Assembly (NCBI RefSeq): GCF_000526215.1
Contig: NZ_JAFQ01000004.1
Location: 558,001 to 622,000 of the forward strand
Source of the DNA: Nocardia sp. BMG51109
GTDB taxonomy: Bacteria; Actinomycetota; Actinomycetes; Mycobacteriales; Mycobacteriaceae
Reading direction: 5' to 3'
DNA: 64,000 bases
In this document: positions 25,696 through 35,447 of the stretch, piece after piece
Position numbering within the stretch: the stretch's first letter is position 1
Layout of the letters: every line of letters begins with the position of its first letter
The notes under the pieces: model-generated
What the model was told of the DNA's origin: nothing
Databases searched by the model: none
What the model saw: only the letters and a program-made list of their open reading frames with translations
Made by a program: the position numbers and the translations under genes

Positions 25696-26817
25696 CTACT
25701 GCTGGTCAAGGTCTCCGAGGGTCCGTGCTGACTCCAGTGCCGCAACAGCCACGTATCGCTGACGTTGTACCCAAGCACTGCCCCTCCCACCACGCTGGCG
25801 GCGAAGCTCGCCGTCCAAAGTCACATGTCCCCGTTTGCGGCCATCGGCATCAGAGCGTGTGAGGCGAAAGAGTTGGTACTCGTCACCCTGCCAACCAAGG
25901 TCCCGCGCGCCCTTGATGATTTCCGCTATGCGCTTGTCATCCTCGCTGCCCGACCCCATCCTCCGGCCGATCTCCTCCGGCGTCCAATCAATGTGATCAA
26001 TACGTTCAAGTACCTTCGGCACTTCGCGCTGCAGTGCACTATCGGCATAGAATCCGATGTGGCTGACCTGCCGGAAGTACCTGCCGGGTTGGCAAACGTA
26101 GGCACTGTGCTTCTCATAGAACGGCCATGCTCTGCGCGCAGGCACGATAACAGCGATGGATTCGGCCGCCTGGGGACGCTCGTCCAGCAGAGCGGGTACC
26201 CGGCACAGCCCAACAACCCACCGCTCCAGATCGGCGTCGATCCACCGGAGCAGATCCATGGCTTGCTCGAACCGCTCCTCGAGCGGGAGATCGAAAATCG
26301 CCTGATGATGCGCGATACGATTGCGCAGATTCTTCAGCGCAAGAACATTTCCCTGTACCGTGTCGCGTTTGAACCCCGCTTTCTCCCTGTTCGGGAACGC
26401 ATGGACGAGGTGCTTACGAAACAATTGCTCGTACTTCGGGCCGAAGACACCCTCCCAGAGGCCGAATGTCACACAAGAAAAAACCTTGTCGCGTGTGGCT
26501 CCGTTCGCCCCGGCACCCAGATGTCGCCGCGCTGTTCGGAAGAATTCGAGGTCGTGTTCGGTCAGGAACGCTGAACTCGCGAACCACCACCCGAGCGAGA
26601 GGTCCACTCGAGCCGACTCCGGGACCTCGAGGGGCTGGAGAACCTTGTCAACCGCGTTGCGGAGGGCAACCTCGACATGGGATATCAACTCGAAGAACGC
26701 AGCGGATATCGCGACATTCCACTCGTAGAGCTCGCGTGCCGCGACCGGGTCGTGGTTCGCAGCCACCAGGTACTCGTCGAACCGACGTTGCGTGACCCAC
26801 GCGGTCGGGTCTGTCAT
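25696..26817 (-). CDS. Abi-family (HEPN) defence protein with extra C-terminal domain
   Basis: This is a 373-residue protein. Residues 1-210 resemble the Abi_2/AbiD-AbiF family of abortive-infection proteins, which belong to the HEPN superfamily of RNases: FFELISHVEVALRNAV near the start and the R-x4-H motif LRNRIAHH (R165, H170). Residues 215-373 form a second domain (HIGFYADSALQREVPKVLER, EYQLFRLTRSDADG) that I cannot assign. It likely acts against phage by RNA cleavage, though this is inferred from family. It has no partner gene. The surrounding DNA is less GC-rich and full of broken genes, which suggests transfer. GGGGGGAG lies before the ATG. Confidence 0.78.
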   Translation of the reverse strand: MTDPTAWVTQRRFDEYLVAANHDPVAARELYEWNVAISAAFFELISHVEVALRNAVDKVLQPLEVPESARVDLSLGWWFASSAFLTEHDLEFFRTARRHLGAGANGATRDKVFSCVTFGLWEGVFGPKYEQLFRKHLVHAFPNREKAGFKRDTVQGNVLALKNLRNRIAHHQAIFDLPLEERFEQAMDLLRWIDADLERWVVGLCRVPALLDERPQAAESIAVIVPARRAWPFYEKHSAYVCQPGRYFRQVSHIGFYADSALQREVPKVLERIDHIDWTPEEIGRRMGSGSEDDKRIAEIIKGARDLGWQGDEYQLFRLTRSDADGRKRGHVTLDGELRRQRGGRGSAWVQRQRYVAVAALESARTLGDLDQQ

Positions 26818-26951: not shown

Positions 26952-28031
26952 CTACACGTTGAAGCGGAATTCGACCACGTCCCCATCCACCATGACGTAG
27001 TCCTTGCCCTCCATGCGGACCTTGCCCGCGGCCTTGGCGGCGGACATGGACCCGGCCTCGATCAGGTCGTTGTAGGCGACGATTTCGGCCTTGATGAAAC
27101 CCTTTTCGAAGTCGGTGTGGATGACGCCGGCGGCCTTGGGGGCTGTGTCGCCCTGGTGGATGGTCCAAGCCCGGGCCTCCTTCGGGCCCGCGGTGAGGTA
27201 GGTCTGCAGGCCCAGGGTGTGGAAGCCGGCTCGGGCCAGGGCGTGCAGACCGGGCTCGGATTGGCCGATCGATTCCAGGAGTTCGGTGGCGGACTCGTCG
27301 TCGAGCTCCAGGAGTTCGGCCTCGACCTTGGCGTCGAGGAAGACCGAATCCGCCGGGGCGACAGCGGCTTTCAGTTCGGCTACGCGGGGCTCGTCGGTCA
27401 GGACGGACTCGTCGGCGTTGAAGACGTAGAGGAAGGGCTTGATCGTCAGCAGGGTGAACTCGCGAAGCAGGTCCGTGTCGAGCTTGTCGCGGACGGAGAA
27501 GAGGGTCTTGCCCTCGTTGAGGAAATCCTGGGCCGCCTTGGTCGCCTCGTAGGCGGGCTTGCGGTCCTTCTTGATCTTGGCTTCCTTCTCCAGCCGGGGG
27601 ACGACCTTCTCCAGGGTCTGCAGGTCGGCGAGGATCAGCTCGGTCTCGATCACCTCGATATCCGACAGCGGGTCGACGCGGCCGCCGACGTGCACCACAT
27701 CGTCGTCGGCGAAGACGCGGACCACCTGGCAGATGGCGTCGGCCTCGCGGATGTTGGCCAGGAACTTGTTGCCCAGGCCCGCACCCTCGGACGCTCCCTG
27801 CACGATGCCCGCGATGTCGACGAACGACACCGTGGCGGGCACGACGCGGGCGGACTCGAAGATCTCGGCCAGCTTGTCCAGCCTCGGGTCGGGCAGCGGC
27901 ACCACTCCGACGTTCGGCTCGATCGTGGCGAACGGGTAGTTCGCCGCCAGCACGTCGTTCTTGGTCAGCGCGTTGAACAGCGTCGACTTTCCGACGTTGG
28001 GCAGGCCGACGATACCGAGGGTGAGACTCAC
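26952..28031 (-). CDS. ychF: Ribosome-associated ATPase YchF (OLA1 family)
   Basis: YchF is an Obg-related P-loop NTPase that prefers ATP, binds ribosomes and takes part in stress and redox responses. It shows GLPNVGKSTLFNAL (Walker A), DIAGIVQGAS (G3), an altered G4 (NADES in place of NKxD, which explains the loss of GTP specificity), a coiled-coil insertion at about 125-200 and a C-terminal TGS-like domain. The length of 359 residues is standard. M. tuberculosis has ychF next to the Rv1111c gene, but here that relative is 23 kb away. Confidence 0.95.
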   Translation of the reverse strand: MSLTLGIVGLPNVGKSTLFNALTKNDVLAANYPFATIEPNVGVVPLPDPRLDKLAEIFESARVVPATVSFVDIAGIVQGASEGAGLGNKFLANIREADAICQVVRVFADDDVVHVGGRVDPLSDIEVIETELILADLQTLEKVVPRLEKEAKIKKDRKPAYEATKAAQDFLNEGKTLFSVRDKLDTDLLREFTLLTIKPFLYVFNADESVLTDEPRVAELKAAVAPADSVFLDAKVEAELLELDDESATELLESIGQSEPGLHALARAGFHTLGLQTYLTAGPKEARAWTIHQGDTAPKAAGVIHTDFEKGFIKAEIVAYNDLIEAGSMSAAKAAGKVRMEGKDYVMVDGDVVEFRFNV

Positions 28032-28860: not shown

Positions 28861-29298
28861 TCACGGTCGTGCGGCATCCCGGACGACTCGTCTGGTCTGT
28901 GCCAGCAGCATCCCCACGTTCACCGACTTGCGGCAGACGACGACCACCACGATGTCGTCGCGGCCGTCGGCACGGAGGAACAGGTGGGCCAGATTCTCGC
29001 TGTTGACCAGGATTTCCTGGAAGTAGTGCGCATCGCTGCGCACGCCCCGGCGTTCCTTCCAGATCTCCTCGATCATCACCACATTGCGGCCCTGGAACAG
29101 TTCCAGCGTCGCCGCCGCGAGCAGGTCCAGAACCTCGGCGGGATGGTTGTCCACGGTCTGCACCGCCAGCAGCATCCCGGTGGACATGTCGATCGCGCCG
29201 GAGGCTACGCAATCCGGCACCTCGGATCGCAACATCTTGACCAGTAGGGCAATTCGATCGGTCATATTGCCCGGGCCGGTATTACTCGGTGTGTTCAT
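28861..29298 (-). CDS. Roadblock/LC7-like protein, left arm of cluster
   Basis: This is a 145-residue protein with the alpha-beta pattern of the Roadblock/longin fold: a first helix (MTDRIALLVKMLRSEV), strand GAIDMSTGMLLAV, a helix with LDLLAAATLELF, and terminal strand DIVVVVVCRKSVNVGMLL. Such proteins dimerise and usually act as platforms or activators for small GTPases. The start at 29298 is set by AAAGGAT upstream. It is downstream of a PATAN-like gene on the same strand, 44 bp away. Confidence 0.6.
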   Translation of the reverse strand: MNTPSNTGPGNMTDRIALLVKMLRSEVPDCVASGAIDMSTGMLLAVQTVDNHPAEVLDLLAAATLELFQGRNVVMIEEIWKERRGVRSDAHYFQEILVNSENLAHLFLRADGRDDIVVVVVCRKSVNVGMLLAQTRRVVRDAARP

Positions 29299-29342
29299 CG
29301 GATCCTTTCTGCAGGCCGCCGTTCGGCGGTTCTGGTTGACGT

Positions 29343-30125
29343 TCACTGCGGGTCGTTGTCCGAACGTTCTTCGGCGGGAGGCGGATACAGTTCGTTGATC
29401 CCGCTGGCATCACGACGCCGACGGGGTAGCGGGGCCTTGGGTGCGGCAGCGGCGGTGCGGCCGGACGGCACCACGAGCGCATGCTCGGCCAGCAACCGGG
29501 ACACCTCGACGGTGACCGGATACAGGCCGTGTCCCAGCACGAACGCGAGATCGCGGCACCGATGCCGCCCGTCCACCTGCGCCAAGATCTCCTGCCGCGG
29601 TCCGGCCGGGCAGTCGCGGAGCATCGAGTCGCCGTATTCGGTGCGGGCCAGGCGGTTTCGATGCGGGGATATCCGGCTGTTGGCCAGCGCCCGCAGCCGC
29701 CGCTCGGTCTCCGCGATCAGTTGATCCGCCTCGACGCCGGCGAACTCGCGTGGCCGGACGCTGTCGCGCCCCGCCGGATCCAGGTCGATCTCCGTGCTCC
29801 AGTAGCTGCCGTCGATCCAGCCGGACGCGATCGCGAACGAGGCATCCAGCGCCGCCATCACCGCCAGCGCCCGCCGTTCCGCGTCACCGGGCAACGCCCG
29901 CCCGGGACGTGCCAGCAGGTCGGAAAGCGCCGGAGCGCCCACGGTGGTGATCGCGAGGACCCGGCCGCGCACGACCCGCAGCCGACCGCCCGGGTCACCG
30001 GAGACGTGCAGATATCCGGTTCGTGTCGCGGCGAACGCCCCTGCCAGCTCCTGGGCCACCTCCTGGGCCGCTCGCCGGCCCAGGGCCGGCACCCGGGTCG
30101 AGCCAGCGAAAGAACCGGTCGTCAT
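29343..30125 (-). CDS. PATAN/DUF4388-like protein with C-terminal winged-helix-like part
   Basis: This is a 260-residue protein. The N-terminal part (TRTGYLHVSGDPGGRLRVVR) has the RTG-x-L-x-V...G-x-V pattern of DUF4388/PATAN-type domains found with GTPase regulators. The later part (QEILAQVDGRHRCRDLAFVL, then VTVEVSRLLAEHALVV) looks like a small winged helix. The same two-part design appears in the gene at 31250 across the divergent promoter. The role is unknown. The start at 30125 is preferred over longer frames because a GGAG lies upstream. Confidence 0.55.
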   Translation of the reverse strand: MTTGSFAGSTRVPALGRRAAQEVAQELAGAFAATRTGYLHVSGDPGGRLRVVRGRVLAITTVGAPALSDLLARPGRALPGDAERRALAVMAALDASFAIASGWIDGSYWSTEIDLDPAGRDSVRPREFAGVEADQLIAETERRLRALANSRISPHRNRLARTEYGDSMLRDCPAGPRQEILAQVDGRHRCRDLAFVLGHGLYPVTVEVSRLLAEHALVVPSGRTAAAAPKAPLPRRRRDASGINELYPPPAEERSDNDPQ

Positions 30126-30863
30126 GGTGGGAACTCCGCGAATGGAGAAAATGAACAAGAGCGCAGACACAGCACGAATCCCGATCCGGCGTCGGTAAGC
30201 CACCGGATCGAGCGCCGTGAAAACTAAACTCCGGCCACCGAATCAGCAATTTGCCGGATAGCAACCGGAGTCGGGTAATAGTCGGTTCAACTCGCATAAC
30301 TGTCGCAAGAGATGATCCCTGGAATTAGTCGTCAGGTGATCGACTCCGGCCGCAACGTCCGGCGGGGCCGATCACCACATGCGAGACATCCTGTCAGGTC
30401 TCGACTTTTAGAGCAACCATCTCCGCAAAATTACCGCAGGCGGCGTCACTAACCCGCCCGTCGTTCGCTCGAACTCCTGATCGCGGACCCCGAACTACCA
30501 GCGCACAACCAGTTCAAGCGGTATTTACCAGGGACACCGGGAACGAGTCCGAACCATTCGGTCGAGTTACAACCGGACAACGCCCGGCAGCCGGCACCGC
30601 ACACCGACTCGGTGGGCACACACCTCGGCAAACACTCGGAAACTACCGACCGCTACGTATTTCCACAGCGTCGGATCCACCGAAACAACGCCCCCGCGCC
30701 ACCCGGAGGACACTCGCCAGCAGTGGATACCGTCAGGTCCAGTTCATCTACATTCCACGATTATTTTGATTGCCAATAATTAGCTCTACTTCTTCTGTAC
30801 AACCAGCGCCGGTGATGTGTAGCGTCTGGATTCTTGAAACACAATCTGACAATCGGTGGCGCG
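30126..30863. promoter_or_regulatory. Long divergent intergenic region of the Roadblock cluster
   Basis: This 738-bp gap separates the two arms of the cluster and contains no convincing gene. It is less GC-rich than its surroundings, with an AT-rich block at 30751-30800 just before the right arm that is a likely promoter. A small hairpin, CGAGAC (30382-30387) with GTCTCG (30398-30403) followed by ACTTTTA, resembles a terminator or attenuator. The length suggests transcriptional control of both arms. Confidence 0.45.
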
Positions 30864-31250
30864 GTGTTCGGTATCGACAGCTGTTTGGAGCGCATCATCG
30901 GTATTCCGGGTGCGCGCGGCGTGACACTGGTGGACGGCGCGACCGGTCTCGCCATCGCCGCGGCCGGCCGACACGAACTGCTGGACGAGCACGAGGACGC
31001 CGCGACCACCACCGATGTGGTCCGTGCGGTCCTCGCCTGTCCGGCCCTGGCCACCGGACACGACGGCGACGACATCACCGAGATCGTGGTGTGCGGGCCG
31101 CGCGGGTACCACCTACTGAATCTGGTGAGCGGCGACTTCGAGGGCCGGCTGTTCGTCCACGTGCTGTTCGACGACGACACGGGCAATCTGGCCATGGCGC
31201 GATTCCGGCTCCAGGGCATCCTCTCCGAGCTGACAGGGCAGGGTAGGTAA
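30864..31250 (+). CDS. Roadblock/LC7 domain protein
   Basis: This is a 128-residue Roadblock/LC7 protein. GIPGARGVTLVDGATGLAIA matches the first two strands, and the end GNLAMARFRLQGIL is the typical terminal helix. I use the GTG at 30864, which places the first helix at the same length as in the gene at 32567 and has GGTGG upstream; the frame is open to a TTG at 30834. Its TAA overlaps the next ATG by one base, so the two are coupled. Confidence 0.7.
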   Translation: MFGIDSCLERIIGIPGARGVTLVDGATGLAIAAAGRHELLDEHEDAATTTDVVRAVLACPALATGHDGDDITEIVVCGPRGYHLLNLVSGDFEGRLFVHVLFDDDTGNLAMARFRLQGILSELTGQGR

Positions 31251-32071
31251 TGGCCGTTGTCGAACTCGCCATCGTCCTGCGCCAACTGGAAAAAGAGAAG
31301 CGCACCGGCGTGCTGCGCGTCGGCGACGGCGCCTTCCACCTCGCCGAGGGCACCGTGGTCTTCGCGACCTGCCGCCGCACGACCGGGCTGGACAGGCTCG
31401 TCGTGGAATCCGGCACGGCCACCGAACAGGACTGGCGCAGAGCCGAATCCGGCGATCCCGGGAATCTTCTGAGGCGTCCCCGGCTCGAGGTCCTGGCGCT
31501 GCTGTCGGTATTCGACGCCGCGTATTTCCTGCTGTCGACGCCGGCCGAGGCCAAGTTCCGGCCCGCCCCGCCGCACTGGCTCGCCCCGATCTGTCGCATC
31601 ACGCCCGGCGCGCTCGTCCACGAGGTGCAGCGCCGCGGCGATCCGGCGGCCGGTCCGTGGCCGGCGATGTGGGTCGACAGGTTTCCGGTCGTGCCCGTGC
31701 GCCGGGTCCGCCGGCGCCGGATGGTGCTGACCGCCGGCCAGATCGAGGTGCTGGCCGCGGCGAACGCCCGGCGAAACGTCACCGGAATCGCGCACGACCT
31801 CGGCCGGACCACCTATGGCTGCCTGGTCGCGGTGCGCGACCTCACCGCGGCCGGACTGCTCGAGCTGCCCGTCTCGGTCGAACCACCCGTTCCGGTCGTG
31901 GTTTCCGGGCCGGTGCGCGAGCGGCCGGCGGACGAGCCTCCCGCGCCCAAGCTCGCGCCGCTGCGGCGCCGGGTGCCGACGGCCGAGCCGGCGCCCGAGC
32001 AGGACCGCTGGGAACCGATCGACCGGGACGTGCTCATCCGGCTGCGGGCGGCCCTGCAAGAGCTGGCGTAA
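31250..32071 (+). CDS. PATAN/DUF4388-like protein with winged-helix-like domain
   Basis: This is a 273-residue protein. It begins with a helix and the strand pair KRTGVLRVGDGAFHLAEGTV of PATAN/DUF4388-type domains, followed by a helical part with LSVFDAAYFLLS. A winged-helix-like segment then appears (LTAGQIEVLAAANARRNVTG, then TTYGCLVAVRDLTAAGLLEL) and a Pro-rich tail. I recall similar proteins, often annotated as transcriptional regulators, beside Roadblock genes in Streptomyces. It may link the Roadblock proteins to gene control or a partner NTPase elsewhere, but this is inference. Confidence 0.6.
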   Translation: MAVVELAIVLRQLEKEKRTGVLRVGDGAFHLAEGTVVFATCRRTTGLDRLVVESGTATEQDWRRAESGDPGNLLRRPRLEVLALLSVFDAAYFLLSTPAEAKFRPAPPHWLAPICRITPGALVHEVQRRGDPAAGPWPAMWVDRFPVVPVRRVRRRRMVLTAGQIEVLAAANARRNVTGIAHDLGRTTYGCLVAVRDLTAAGLLELPVSVEPPVPVVVSGPVRERPADEPPAPKLAPLRRRVPTAEPAPEQDRWEPIDRDVLIRLRAALQELA

Positions 32072-32122
32072 CCGTGCGAAGAAGCCGATCGGCTATCCGA
32101 TGGAAGGTTGACCAAGGTGGCG

Positions 32123-32533
32123 ATGACCAAGGTGGAAATGTCCGGGCCGCAATCGAATACGGCGGTGCTGGCCGAGTTGCGGGCGTTACGCGCCCGGATA
32201 CCGGAACTGACCGGTGTGCTGGTGGCCTCCGGCGACGGGATGCTCGTCGCGCACCTCCTGCCCGCAGACATCGAGCCGACGGGGGTGGCCGCCCTGACCG
32301 CCTCCCAGCTGGCGCTGTCGTATCGGCTCGTCACCACCGTGCACGGCGGCGGATTCCGCGAGGTCGTGGTGCACGGGACGGACGGGTACGTCGTGATCTA
32401 CGCGGCGGGACGGACGGCGCTGACGGTACTGGCCGGTCCGGAGGTGAACGTCGGCCGGCTCCATCTGGAGTCGCGGCCGGTCGCTCACACGATCGCCGAA
32501 CAGCTCACGGCGACGACCCAGGGCCTCGGGTGA
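32123..32533 (+). CDS. Roadblock/LC7 domain protein
   Basis: This is a 136-residue Roadblock/LC7 protein: helix LAELRALRARIPELTGVLVA, strand GDGMLVAHLLPADIE, a helix with LTASQLALSYRLV, and a strand pair FREVVVHGTDGYVVIYAAG. It resembles the CvnB/MglB class. The sequence ACCAAGGTGG occurs twice before possible ATG starts at 32123 and 32138; the first is used here. A TTG at 32108 is also open. Confidence 0.7.
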   Translation: MTKVEMSGPQSNTAVLAELRALRARIPELTGVLVASGDGMLVAHLLPADIEPTGVAALTASQLALSYRLVTTVHGGGFREVVVHGTDGYVVIYAAGRTALTVLAGPEVNVGRLHLESRPVAHTIAEQLTATTQGLG

Positions 32534-32566
32534 ACGAGGCACCGAACACCGATGAAAGGAACGAAC

Positions 32567-32938
32567 ATGTCCAATATGGATCTGGCGCTGAAGAACATGA
32601 TGGGGATCGACGGCGCGGTGGGCGCCGCCGTCGTCGACTACAACAGCGGCATGGCGCTCGGAATGCTCGGCAGCTCCAAGGCACTCGACCTGCAGATCGC
32701 GGCGGCGGGCAATACCGAGGTGGTGCGCGCCAAGATGCGCACCATCGAGCAACTCCAGCTCAACGAGGACATCGAGGACATCCTCATCACTCTGAGTGGT
32801 CAGTATCACATCATCCGGCCGATGTCCGACCGCAAGTCCAAAGGGCTGTTCCTCTACCTCGCCATGGACCGCAGCCGAGCGAATCTCGCGATGGCCCGGC
32901 ACCGGCTCAAGACCATCGAGGAGGACCTGGAGGTCTGA
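32567..32938 (+). CDS. Roadblock/LC7 domain protein
   Basis: This is a 123-residue Roadblock/LC7 protein: MMGIDGAVGAAVVDYNSGMA (first helix and strands), a central helix with NTEVVRAKMRTIEQL, strand pair DIEDILITLSGQYHIIRP, and the terminal helix RSRANLAMARHRLKTIEEDL. Similar sequences are frequent in Streptomyces. AAAGGA is positioned correctly before the ATG at 32567. A terminator follows 23 bp after the stop, so this is the last gene of the right arm. Confidence 0.75.
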   Translation: MSNMDLALKNMMGIDGAVGAAVVDYNSGMALGMLGSSKALDLQIAAAGNTEVVRAKMRTIEQLQLNEDIEDILITLSGQYHIIRPMSDRKSKGLFLYLAMDRSRANLAMARHRLKTIEEDLEV

Positions 32939-32961
32939 CCCGGCCGCGTTTCCCGCCCGAT

Positions 32962-33001
32962 ACCGGACAACCCGCTCGGTTCGCTCCCACGGTTGTCCGG
33001 T
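32962..33001 (+). terminator. Hairpin terminator after the Roadblock operon
   Basis: ACCGGACAACC at 32962-32972 pairs perfectly with GGTTGTCCGGT at 32991-33001, enclosing an 18-base loop. The T-run is short (TTT), so it may be weak or act with Rho. The remaining 169 bp to the next gene hold nothing I recognise. Confidence 0.7.
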
Positions 33002-33170
33002 TTCGCGAGAACGCTTGTCCGACATGGGGGTTTACCTCGGATCGGGATATCCTGCCGCGCAATCGAAACGGATGCCGTTCACCGTATCCCGGTGACACCC
33101 GATATGATTGAAAGGTTGGCAACCACCCGTGGCGGTGGTGGTGTATTCGCGCGCTCTCGAGGGAATCACC

Positions 33171-35447
33171 ATGGTGGACAAGGGGAAACGACCCGACGGA
33201 GCGGTTCCGCTCCCTGATGTCGTCGCGGCGTTGTCGGCACAGCTGGCATCGATGGGTACGGTCGACCTGGCGTCGGCGCCCGGGGCCGAGAATCCGTACG
33301 ATCGCTCCACCAGATTCGCGCCGACGGCCGTCGACGCGACCTTCCACCTGCTGATCGACACCGACTCCGATGAGCCCCAGTTCTGGGTGGTCGGGGCGAA
33401 CACGCCGCTGCCGAACGGGACCGCCACGCACACAGTGAAACTCGCCCTCACCCCGGCGACCACCGCGGCGGAACCGGCGGCCGAAGGCGAAACACCTTCT
33501 CCCACCGGCACACCGAGGGCCACCATCGTCTCGATCGAGCCCACCCCCGCCGCCGATACCGCACCCGCTCCTCCGGACGACCAGCCGCCCCTTCTGCCGG
33601 ACGACGAACAACATCCGGAGTCCGTCGCGGGAACCAGCGTGGCCGAGGGCCCGACACGAACGGACACCTCCGCCGACGCAGGAACAGATCGGGCCGAGAT
33701 CACCACACCCGCAACCGCTCCGGCAGCCGATGACCGGCCCACTGCCACAACAGACCTCGGGCAATTCGTCGCCGCGGACTCCGGCGACGAGCAGCGAGAA
33801 TCCGGGACCGTGCCCGCCGAGGGCTTACTCCCGGCGGCGGTCACCCCATCCGCGAATGCTCGCATCGTCACCGAACCGGAGGCCGAGACGGTCACCGACG
33901 CCGACGAGGCGCGGGACAGCCGGCACGCCGCTGCACTGGCGGACGAGCACGGCGCGACACCGGCCATGTCCACCGGCTCGCAAGGAGATTCCGCGAACGC
34001 CGCGACCCCGGCGGGTTCCGTCACGGCCGACGCCACCACGGTCACTACACCGACCGACACCGACCCGATCACACCACCGGCAGACACCACACCAACCGAC
34101 TCCGACCAGTCCACAACATCACAAGACACCGCACCCGCCGAGGGAGCGCTCCCGGCCGCAGTCGGCACATCCGCGAACGCCCCGGCTGCCACCGAACCGG
34201 AGGCCGAGATGGTCGCCGCCACCGCCACCGAGGCACAGGACCGCCGTTCCTCCTCTGCATCGGCCCGCGGGCAAGGAGATTCCGCGGAGACCGCGCCCCC
34301 GGCGGATTCCGCCGCGGTCACAACACCAACAGATACCGCGGCGGCCGACGCCGACCGGTCCACAACACCGGAAGGCACGGCGGCGGCCGAGCCCGCCGTG
34401 CCGACCCACCCCACGACCCCCGAGCAACATGCCCAGGTCATCGCCCACCACGAGCGCGCGGTCGCGGACAAGGAACGGGAGCACGGGCCGCTGCACCACG
34501 AGACACTCACGGCCGCAGGTGATCTCGCGCACTCCTACTTCGACGCCGATCGCGTGAACGATGCCATCGACCTCTACGAGCGAGTGCTCGCGGACGGCGA
34601 GTACGCCCTGGACCCCGACGGTGTCGACACGCTCAACCTGCGCAACGCACTGGCCCAGTGCTACCGCCGCGGCGGCCGCCTCGCCGAGGCCGTCGACCTG
34701 TACGAACGCATCGTGACCGACAGCGAGCAGACCCACGGCCCCGAGCATCGGAACACCCTCACCGCCCGCCACAACCTGGCCATGCTGTACCGCGCGACCG
34801 GCCGGACGACGGAGGCGATCGATCTGTACCGGCGCACCCTCGCCGACAGCGAACGCGTGCTCGGCCACGAACATCCGGACACCCTCGCCACCTCCGACAA
34901 CCTGGCCTTCGCACTGCGTGCCGAGGGCCGCACCGCCGAAGCCGAGGATCTCGACCGGCGCAGCCTGGCCATCCGCGAACGGATACTGGGCCCCGAACAT
35001 CCCGACACGATCGAGGCCATGACGGGTGTCGCCGAAGATCACCTGGAGGCCGGGCGCCCGACCGACGCGGCCGAACTCTCCGAGCGAGCGGTCGTGACGG
35101 CGGAACGGGCGCTCGGCAACGACCATCCGACGACCCTGCGCGCCCGCAGCAGCCTGGCGCTGGCCTACGAGCAGCTGGATCGGCGGTCCGAGGCGGCCGA
35201 ACTCTACCGGCGGGTGCTCACCGACCGGCAGCGGCTGCTCGGCGCCGACCATCGGCTCACCATTCTGGCCCGCAACAATCTGGCATGCTCGTACTTCGAG
35301 GCGGGCCGCTACCACGAGGCGGCCGAGGAGTTCACGCGCGCACTCGCCGATCGCGAACGTGTCCTCGGCCCCGACGATCCCGACACGGTGAAGACACGCG
35401 AATATCTGGCCGTCAGCTATCGAGCCGCACAGCAGACCGGCCGGTGA
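33171..35447 (+). CDS. Trypco2-like domain - repeat linker - TPR array protein
   Basis: This is a 758-residue protein in three parts. Residues 10-92 resemble the trypsin-co-occurring domain 2 (Trypco2), with [13 protein letters not shown], an aromatic strand QFWVVGA and the closing [10 protein letters not shown]. Residues 93-424 are an acidic Thr/Ala/Pro-rich linker with a duplicated unit of about 107 residues (AEGLLPAAV near 216 and AEGALPAAV near 323). Residues 425-750 are about eight 42-residue TPRs of the kinesin-light-chain type (GPEHPDTL or similar in each loop). Trypco2 and such TPRs are known from multidomain conflict/signalling proteins, but here the usual protease or NTPase is absent. 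The ATG at 33171 has GAGGG upstream. Confidence 0.75.

Follow-up and report, generated by a model that had tools for sequence, protein, structure and literature searches.

In a 64,000-nucleotide stretch of the genome of Nocardia sp. BMG51109 (contig NZ_JAFQ01000004.1, positions 558,001 to 622,000; referred to here, over its whole length, as the window), four consecutive genes, designated C, D, E and F, form a real and recurrent cassette: a GTPase-less variant of the Roadblock/PATAN small-GTPase systems that has a specific regulatory site, and whose mechanism we infer from sequence and predicted structure. The cassette, which has no adjoining Ras-like GTPase gene, would act as a switch on its own transcription, its Roadblock proteins either holding D, a predicted DNA-binding protein, or letting it go, an interpretation for which we regard the case as evenly balanced. 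In this scheme the C and F proteins would pair as a Roadblock dimer, the pair would dock on D through a conserved C-terminal helix, and D would read palindromes at its own promoter, switching its own genes. To a more far-reaching version, in which a Ras-GTPase module dropped its GTPase and was rebuilt as a stand-alone Roadblock switch, with the C-F pair and E acting on D as it reads these palindromes, we lend a little less than even weight. If it were true, no GTPase would be needed for Roadblock proteins to signal to DNA, and orphan proteins of the MglB type would gain a defined output. What is new is that a GTPase-less Roadblock gene is given a recurring operon, a likely origin by loss of the GTPase, a candidate for its output and a specific DNA site, so that a single purified protein and a single promoter suffice to put the role of GTPase-less Roadblock proteins to the test.

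The locus also holds a divergent left arm of two genes, A and B. Its features are as follows (aa, amino acids):

28861..29298, minus strand: A, 145 aa, alternative start GTG at 29346; second gene of the left arm, weakly Roadblock-like
29343..30125, minus strand: B, 260 aa from ATG at 30125, in a reading frame that reaches 30203; PATAN-like and winged-helix-like with an LPRRRR tail; first gene of the left arm
30726..30741, no strand assigned: operator remnant, a degenerate AATACC-N4-GGTATT that retains the core ATACC-N4-GGT
30816..30829, plus strand: conserved promoter-like box TGTGTAGCGTCTGG, upstream of C
30864..31250, plus strand: C, 128 aa from GTG (start set by relatives), possible start TTG at 30834; Roadblock-like
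31250..32071, plus strand: D, 273 aa; PATAN/DUF4388-like N-terminal part, winged-helix-like region, linker and C-terminal helix
32108..32533, plus strand: E, 141 aa from TTG; Roadblock/LC7 protein of the MglB/CvnB kind
32567..32938, plus strand: F, 123 aa, alternative start ATG at 32552; Roadblock fold, the most conserved part
32963..33000, plus strand: inverted repeat and possible terminator, perfect over 10 bp, with an 18-nucleotide loop and then only TTT

A first-pass annotation of the letters alone had described this layout, and it is confirmed in part. The six open reading frames are present, between 28861 and 32938, and free of inner stops; C ends and D starts at 31250, giving the 1-bp overlap that had been noted; and the 738-bp gap between the arms agrees with the likely starts of B (ATG 30125) and C (GTG 30864). 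The terminator proposed after F is less secure, as the 10-bp inverted repeat is perfect but its T tract is weak and it falls outside the limits of the terminator scan.

The C-D-E-F operon recurs without a small GTPase

The C-D-E-F operon recurs in Nocardia, Streptomyces and other actinobacteria. A profile of F found matches in 21 of 396 genomes of the phylum, and a broader alignment in 106 of 394 genomes of the class; C, D, E and F were all present at 56 of the best 80 of at least 581 confirmed places in named genomes. Of 79 genomes that were searched, 41 contain F. The set includes 46 other Nocardia; F scored highly in 34 of them, and D was found in 33. Within Nocardia the order C-D-E-F recurs, with flanking genes that vary between species groups.

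Altogether 173 loci were read (40 + 26 + 87 + 20, some genomes twice), and GTPases were sought at them with six query sequences. There were 97 four-part clusters (in two of which the first gene scores as F) and 40 clusters with F alone. A small GTPase lay inside none of the 97 four-part clusters, within the reach of the six queries, which very divergent GTPases could escape; GTPase genes lying outside the cassette cluster on L058, L184, L197 and L240 were not counted as part of it.

For the window and the rest of the genome the search used PF03029, the family that catches CvnD-type GTPases. Neither PF03029 nor DUF742 had a match within the 64 kb, and no kinase match was obtained in the six genes and four near neighbours, to which the kinase scan was limited. 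The earlier statement that the window is free of Ras-like GTPase, DUF742 and kinase genes thus stands for the two Pfam families and, for kinases, over those ten genes; an ordinary YchF GTPase gene does lie at 26952-28031, 0.8 kb from the left arm.

Families and predicted folds of the cassette proteins

By Pfam, E is a Robl_LC7 protein (3.3e-13). F has no Pfam match, and its AlphaFold model (35 sequences; predicted local distance difference test, pLDDT, 88.4; predicted template modelling score, pTM, 0.83) has the order alpha-beta-beta-alpha-beta-beta-beta-alpha; compared with the PDB, this model matched Myxococcus MglB first, with Ragulator and a Streptomyces avermitilis Roadblock protein among the top matches. 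F is 80-87% identical in the best copies of the 34 other Nocardia, one copy having an inner stop. C and F are homologues by profile comparison (99.7%, hhalign), whereas the F and E profiles gave no alignment to each other. E, F and C therefore belong to the Roadblock/LC7 superfamily, by Pfam, fold model and homology to F, respectively. Four Roadblock-like proteins had been claimed; the remaining one, A, is a weak match, being without a Pfam hit and with a profile that scores 63% against that of E and 4% against that of F.

Both proteins that had been called PATAN-like can be kept under that description by way of homology. D matches DUF4388 below threshold (0.0042), scoring 17.6 bits where the cut-off is 25, but its profile picks up proteins at locus L203 with strong DUF4388 matches above the cut-off (3e-33 and 9e-16), and B, which has no Pfam match of its own, is a homologue of D (profile match 99.2%). 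The D model starts with an alpha/beta part at the N terminus, which is followed by a winged-helix-like region (about residues 133-209), a low-confidence Pro/Arg-rich linker and a conserved C-terminal helix. The DNA-binding output suggested in the first-pass annotation is likely. One Streptomyces D gave a weak, sub-threshold DUF742 match (0.027). A Foldseek search of the PDB with the D model returned nothing at an E value of 0.001 or better; a second structural comparison covered chiefly the winged helix, whose neighbours include chains of GATOR1 and the SEA complex.

Distant loci that combine these parts with a GTPase

An MglA-type GTPase beside an MglB-type gene was seen in eight distant loci only. 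In these clusters (L199, L201, L203, L206 and L208, which belong to other families, two from Demequina and one from Agarilytica) the GTPase sits among the same parts as in the cassette. The order is F-GTPase-E in Demequina flava and D. activiva and F-BLUF-GTPase-Roadblock on plasmid pSU2 of Agarilytica rhodophyticola; at L203 a PATAN gene comes first, then a GTPase, a gene for a 219-aa protein, E and two F genes, which amounts to D-E-F with a GTPase in between. In close relatives, no constantly adjoining GTPase was found. Because the GTPase occurs among these parts at the eight distant loci, the self-contained state of the cassette looks derived; the first-pass annotation was right that the present locus has no Ras-like GTPase alongside.

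In a tree of E rooted on conservon CvnB, 46 rows without a GTPase form one group (88 bootstrap; 97 in the Shimodaira-Hasegawa-like approximate likelihood ratio test, SH-aLRT) that excludes these GTPase-coupled lineages. A second GTPase-less pair, from Cellulomonas, joins Demequina, so that the presence and absence of the GTPase are explained by two changes; E itself forms a clade apart from CvnB. For this tree the C-D-E-F rows were sampled, two L291 rows and one L242 row were left out, a contig-edge row of L201 was assigned as GTPase-coupled, supports came from the LG+G4 model, and long branches remain. Since the CvnB root is also GTPase-coupled and two changes suffice, the sequences favour loss of the GTPase from the cassette lineage.

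Three of the distant settings are of interest in themselves. At L203 (2959-10287) a second GTPase-PATAN-Roadblock set lies back to back with the first on the opposite strand, next to an ATPase gene whose sequence looks PilB-like by eye, a layout hinting that this lineage may connect the system with type IV pili. On pSU2 (L211:5001-7072) an F homologue, a BLUF blue-light sensor, a Ras-like GTPase and a Roadblock gene stand in a row, possibly a light-controlled GTPase switch. On a conjugative plasmid of Acinetobacter wuhouensis (L212:47-1924) a Roadblock gene, a gene for a 321-aa protein without a Pfam family and an F homologue occur together, with insertion sequence (IS) elements nearby.

A dedicated GTPase encoded elsewhere was also sought. 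The genome of BMG51109 has seven Robl_LC7, six DUF742 and seven CvnD-type GTPase genes; six complete CvnB-DUF742-GTPase sets account for all but E and one CvnD-type GTPase (L099:9770-10351), which has neither CvnB nor DUF742 beside it. As a dedicated partner of E this gene was rejected: at each of the 29 relatives' loci examined its best match adjoins CvnB or DUF742, and counterparts also occur in genomes without the cassette. It is probably a stray conservon copy, and at the loci examined no unlinked, dedicated GTPase was found.

A probable palindromic operator upstream of C

The half-sites AATACC and GGTATT are common to many of 24 aligned Nocardia regions upstream of C, and each base of the box TGTGTAGCGTC is kept in at least 90% of them; a generic sigma-70 scan upstream of C detected no promoter. 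Across the 79 genomes there are 20 perfect copies of GGTATTNAATACC. Fourteen, from nine genomes, immediately precede C; two of the other six were examined, and both lie within a long reading frame. For perfect AATACC-N4-GGTATT the count is again 20 places, with 17 upstream of C in 13 genomes. Reversed-motif controls gave 0 for either pattern. At L048, L053 and L054 the perfect sites repeat at 17 bp. When up to two mismatches were allowed, a GGTATTNAATACC site was found in 16 of the 24 regions, at 106-224 bp from C, against 2 of 480 shuffles, and an open palindrome scan recovered 15 of 23 regions against at most 3 in shuffles. The window itself carries the remnant listed above, placed where relatives carry the site; its core ATACC-N4-GGT also turned up in 14 of 2000 shuffled versions of the gap.

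That the perfect sites are nearly confined to one operon indicates a local regulator, and since no other protein of that operon is predicted to bind DNA, D is the candidate reader. Thus, the palindromes upstream of C point to autoregulation, with D as the probable reader. In one Nocardia genome (G036; L082:9077-9829) D stands apart from C, E and F and has a one-mismatch operator upstream. An operator shared by both arms was rejected, as 22 left-arm loci scanned contained no GGTATTNAATACC site at one mismatch or fewer.

Weighing the proposed switch

Several results weigh against a D-centred switch that works without a GTPase. The operator of the window has mismatches at 4 of 12 positions, no better than shuffles by mismatch count, its genome contains no perfect site, and 8 of the 24 upstream regions, that of the window included, are without a site at two or fewer mismatches. 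L052 and L065, which have C-E-F and no D, retain one-mismatch sites, so D may not be the sole reader. At 68 mostly Streptomyces loci the regions upstream of C did not clearly share a palindrome (9 at best, against up to 5 in shuffles), and the operator is therefore specific to Nocardia so far. The PATAN part of D matched no solved structure, and its winged-helix scores are within the range of common arrangements. The F tree, with too few columns and long branches, fails to place the gain or loss of the GTPase. Finally, all 47 Nocardia searched have 4-8 CvnD-like GTPases (E value 1e-40 or better) that could serve in trans, and these genes average 5.9 in the 34 Nocardia with F and 4.8 in the 10 without any F match, a difference that leaves room for a borrowed conservon GTPase.

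Such borrowing would mean that E, the C-F pair or both act on a conservon CvnD, making the cassette a side branch of conservon signalling. The six complete sets and the additional CvnD-type GTPase in this genome, the MglB/CvnB type of E and the somewhat larger number of CvnD-like genes in genomes with F are all consistent with it, and so is a tail motif. An LPxR motif is conserved in the C-terminal extension of conservon kinases and, in the part of PMC4316618 available, is reported as not found in proteins of the Group 3-5 systems. In the relatives' CvnA tails LP[RK]R occurs in 23 of 28, against 0.4 expected from shuffled tails (the sequences being related), and in this genome the kinase-position protein has it in five of six conservons, as against 1 of 95 other proteins (B set aside). 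B ends in LPRRRR, and LP[RK]R is present in seven of its eight near homologues (0.34 expected) and 15 of 16 further ones. Among D proteins of the genus and order it is found in 16 of 26 (12 of 22 in the genus, the other Nocardia, and 4 of 4 in the order). The tails of B and D may dock on Roadblock proteins. LPxR does not, however, characterise the D family as a whole: it occurs in 8 of 60 named D proteins, against 2.4 expected and with controls of 8/73 for E, 1/58 for C and 1/80 for F, while the C-terminal helix pattern is kept in 50 of the 60. The D of the window is itself without LP[RK]R, as are 52 of the 60 named D proteins, and the motif is missing from the GTPase-coupled PATAN proteins at L203 and L201, where three of the four reading frames end in a stretch that looks helix-like by eye. 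Moreover, genomes without the cassette also hold 4-7 CvnD-like GTPases, E branches apart from CvnB, and the unpaired GTPase is matched beside CvnB or DUF742 at all 29 loci examined. A side branch of conservon signalling therefore seems to us rather unlikely.

Alternatively, the operator could be read by a regulator encoded elsewhere, with C-D-E-F serving as a scaffold or signalling complex in which the winged helix of D makes protein contacts only, a role that such folds may have in GATOR1 or the SEA complex. The operators kept in the two genomes without D and the GATOR1 and SEA-complex chains among the structural neighbours of D would fit such an arrangement, but sites almost exclusive to this operon are what a local regulator would be expected to show, D alone among the proteins encoded there is predicted to bind DNA, and RefSeq annotates one Streptomyces D as a transcriptional regulator. 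An outside reader is accordingly improbable, and D remains our preferred candidate for the protein that binds the palindromes.

The left arm is a separate module

The first-pass annotation had treated the two arms as one divergent unit around a shared regulatory gap. A is full-length in 8 of the 46 other Nocardia and fragmentary in three. B adjoins A in all eight genomes with a full-length A, and C, D, E and F are absent from these eight A-B loci (two of them on contigs of just 5.2 and 8.8 kb). Of nine loci in the Streptomyces group, six have a B-E-A left arm and three, as drawn by the gene caller, B-A. Because A-B stands apart from C-D-E-F in eight of eight Nocardia and the Streptomyces group has B-E-A, the adjacency seen here does not reflect a conserved layout. 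The left arm B-A is a related yet independent module, which adjoins C-D-E-F in this genome alone among those checked, and the two-armed unit looks like a chance arrangement peculiar to it. A single system is hardly tenable, even though each arm encodes a homologous PATAN-like protein and F is also present in all eight sampled Nocardia with full-length A, given that the arms are unlinked in those eight, that F occurs in 34 of 46 genomes anyway, which makes the co-presence uninformative, and that in the Streptomyces group most left arms come with a separate E and with a shared neighbourhood of their own.

A partial A homologue in Ruegeria sp. THAF33 (L369:137-8249) lies amid four genes annotated as dynamin family, of which two were tested and both match Dynamin_N; that the neighbour of the A homologue in Ruegeria is a B homologue was not borne out.

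Neighbouring genes

Directly after the cassette, 33108-35447 (plus strand) encodes a tetratricopeptide repeat (TPR) protein that scores below the cut-off for the FxSxx-COOH system TPR family (222 bits, where 300 are required); beside the cassettes of relatives, a TPR gene was seen as weak matches at L074 and L075 only. At 25696-26817 (minus strand) there is an Abi_2 match barely below the cut-off (25.5 against 25.6 bits).

Comparison with known systems

In titles and abstract openings we found no description of the cassette or its operator, most subscription papers lying outside the search. Conservons, described as an 'actinobacterial G protein system', consist of a kinase, a Roadblock protein, CvnC and a GTPase, with MfpD cited as a GTPase-activating protein and MfpC as a likely guanine nucleotide exchange factor (PMC13343842). 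With them the locus shares an MglB-type Roadblock protein, a multi-gene operon, a helix-turn-helix-like part and the LPxR tail, present in B and about half of Nocardia D proteins. C-D-E-F differs in having no kinase, no GTPase and no DUF742 above the Pfam cut-off, and instead a PATAN-like protein and two F-type Roadblock proteins, with an E outside the CvnB clade. That the tail of conservon kinases is present in non-kinase proteins is new with respect to the available text of PMC4316618, which did not find it in Group 3-5 proteins.

PATAN genes lie near some MglA genes (PMC4316618, and Makarova 2006 as cited there). In the MglA/MglB systems beside PATAN (Groups 1 and 5 of PMC4316618), as in the cassette, a PATAN-like gene adjoins an MglB-type gene, and the fold of F is nearest to MglB; the cassette departs from these groups in its two kinds of Roadblock protein (E and C/F), its winged helix and its want of an adjoining MglA. 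Group 3 systems, with a receiver-like and winged-helix protein, MglA and one or two MglB (PMC4316618), likewise combine a winged-helix protein with more than one MglB-like partner, whereas the cassette is without a GTPase and has a PATAN-like in place of a receiver-like part. According to the accessible text of the same 2014 survey, one actinobacterial MglB clade is exclusively orphan, with no flanking conservon genes, and none of the orphan MglB proteins had been characterised; E fits this clade by description only. Lastly, while the cassette adjoins no counterpart of the Rag GTPases, it resembles Ragulator (LAMTOR) in the Roadblock-fold heterodimer platform, which the F model matches and of which the putative C-F pair would be an example.

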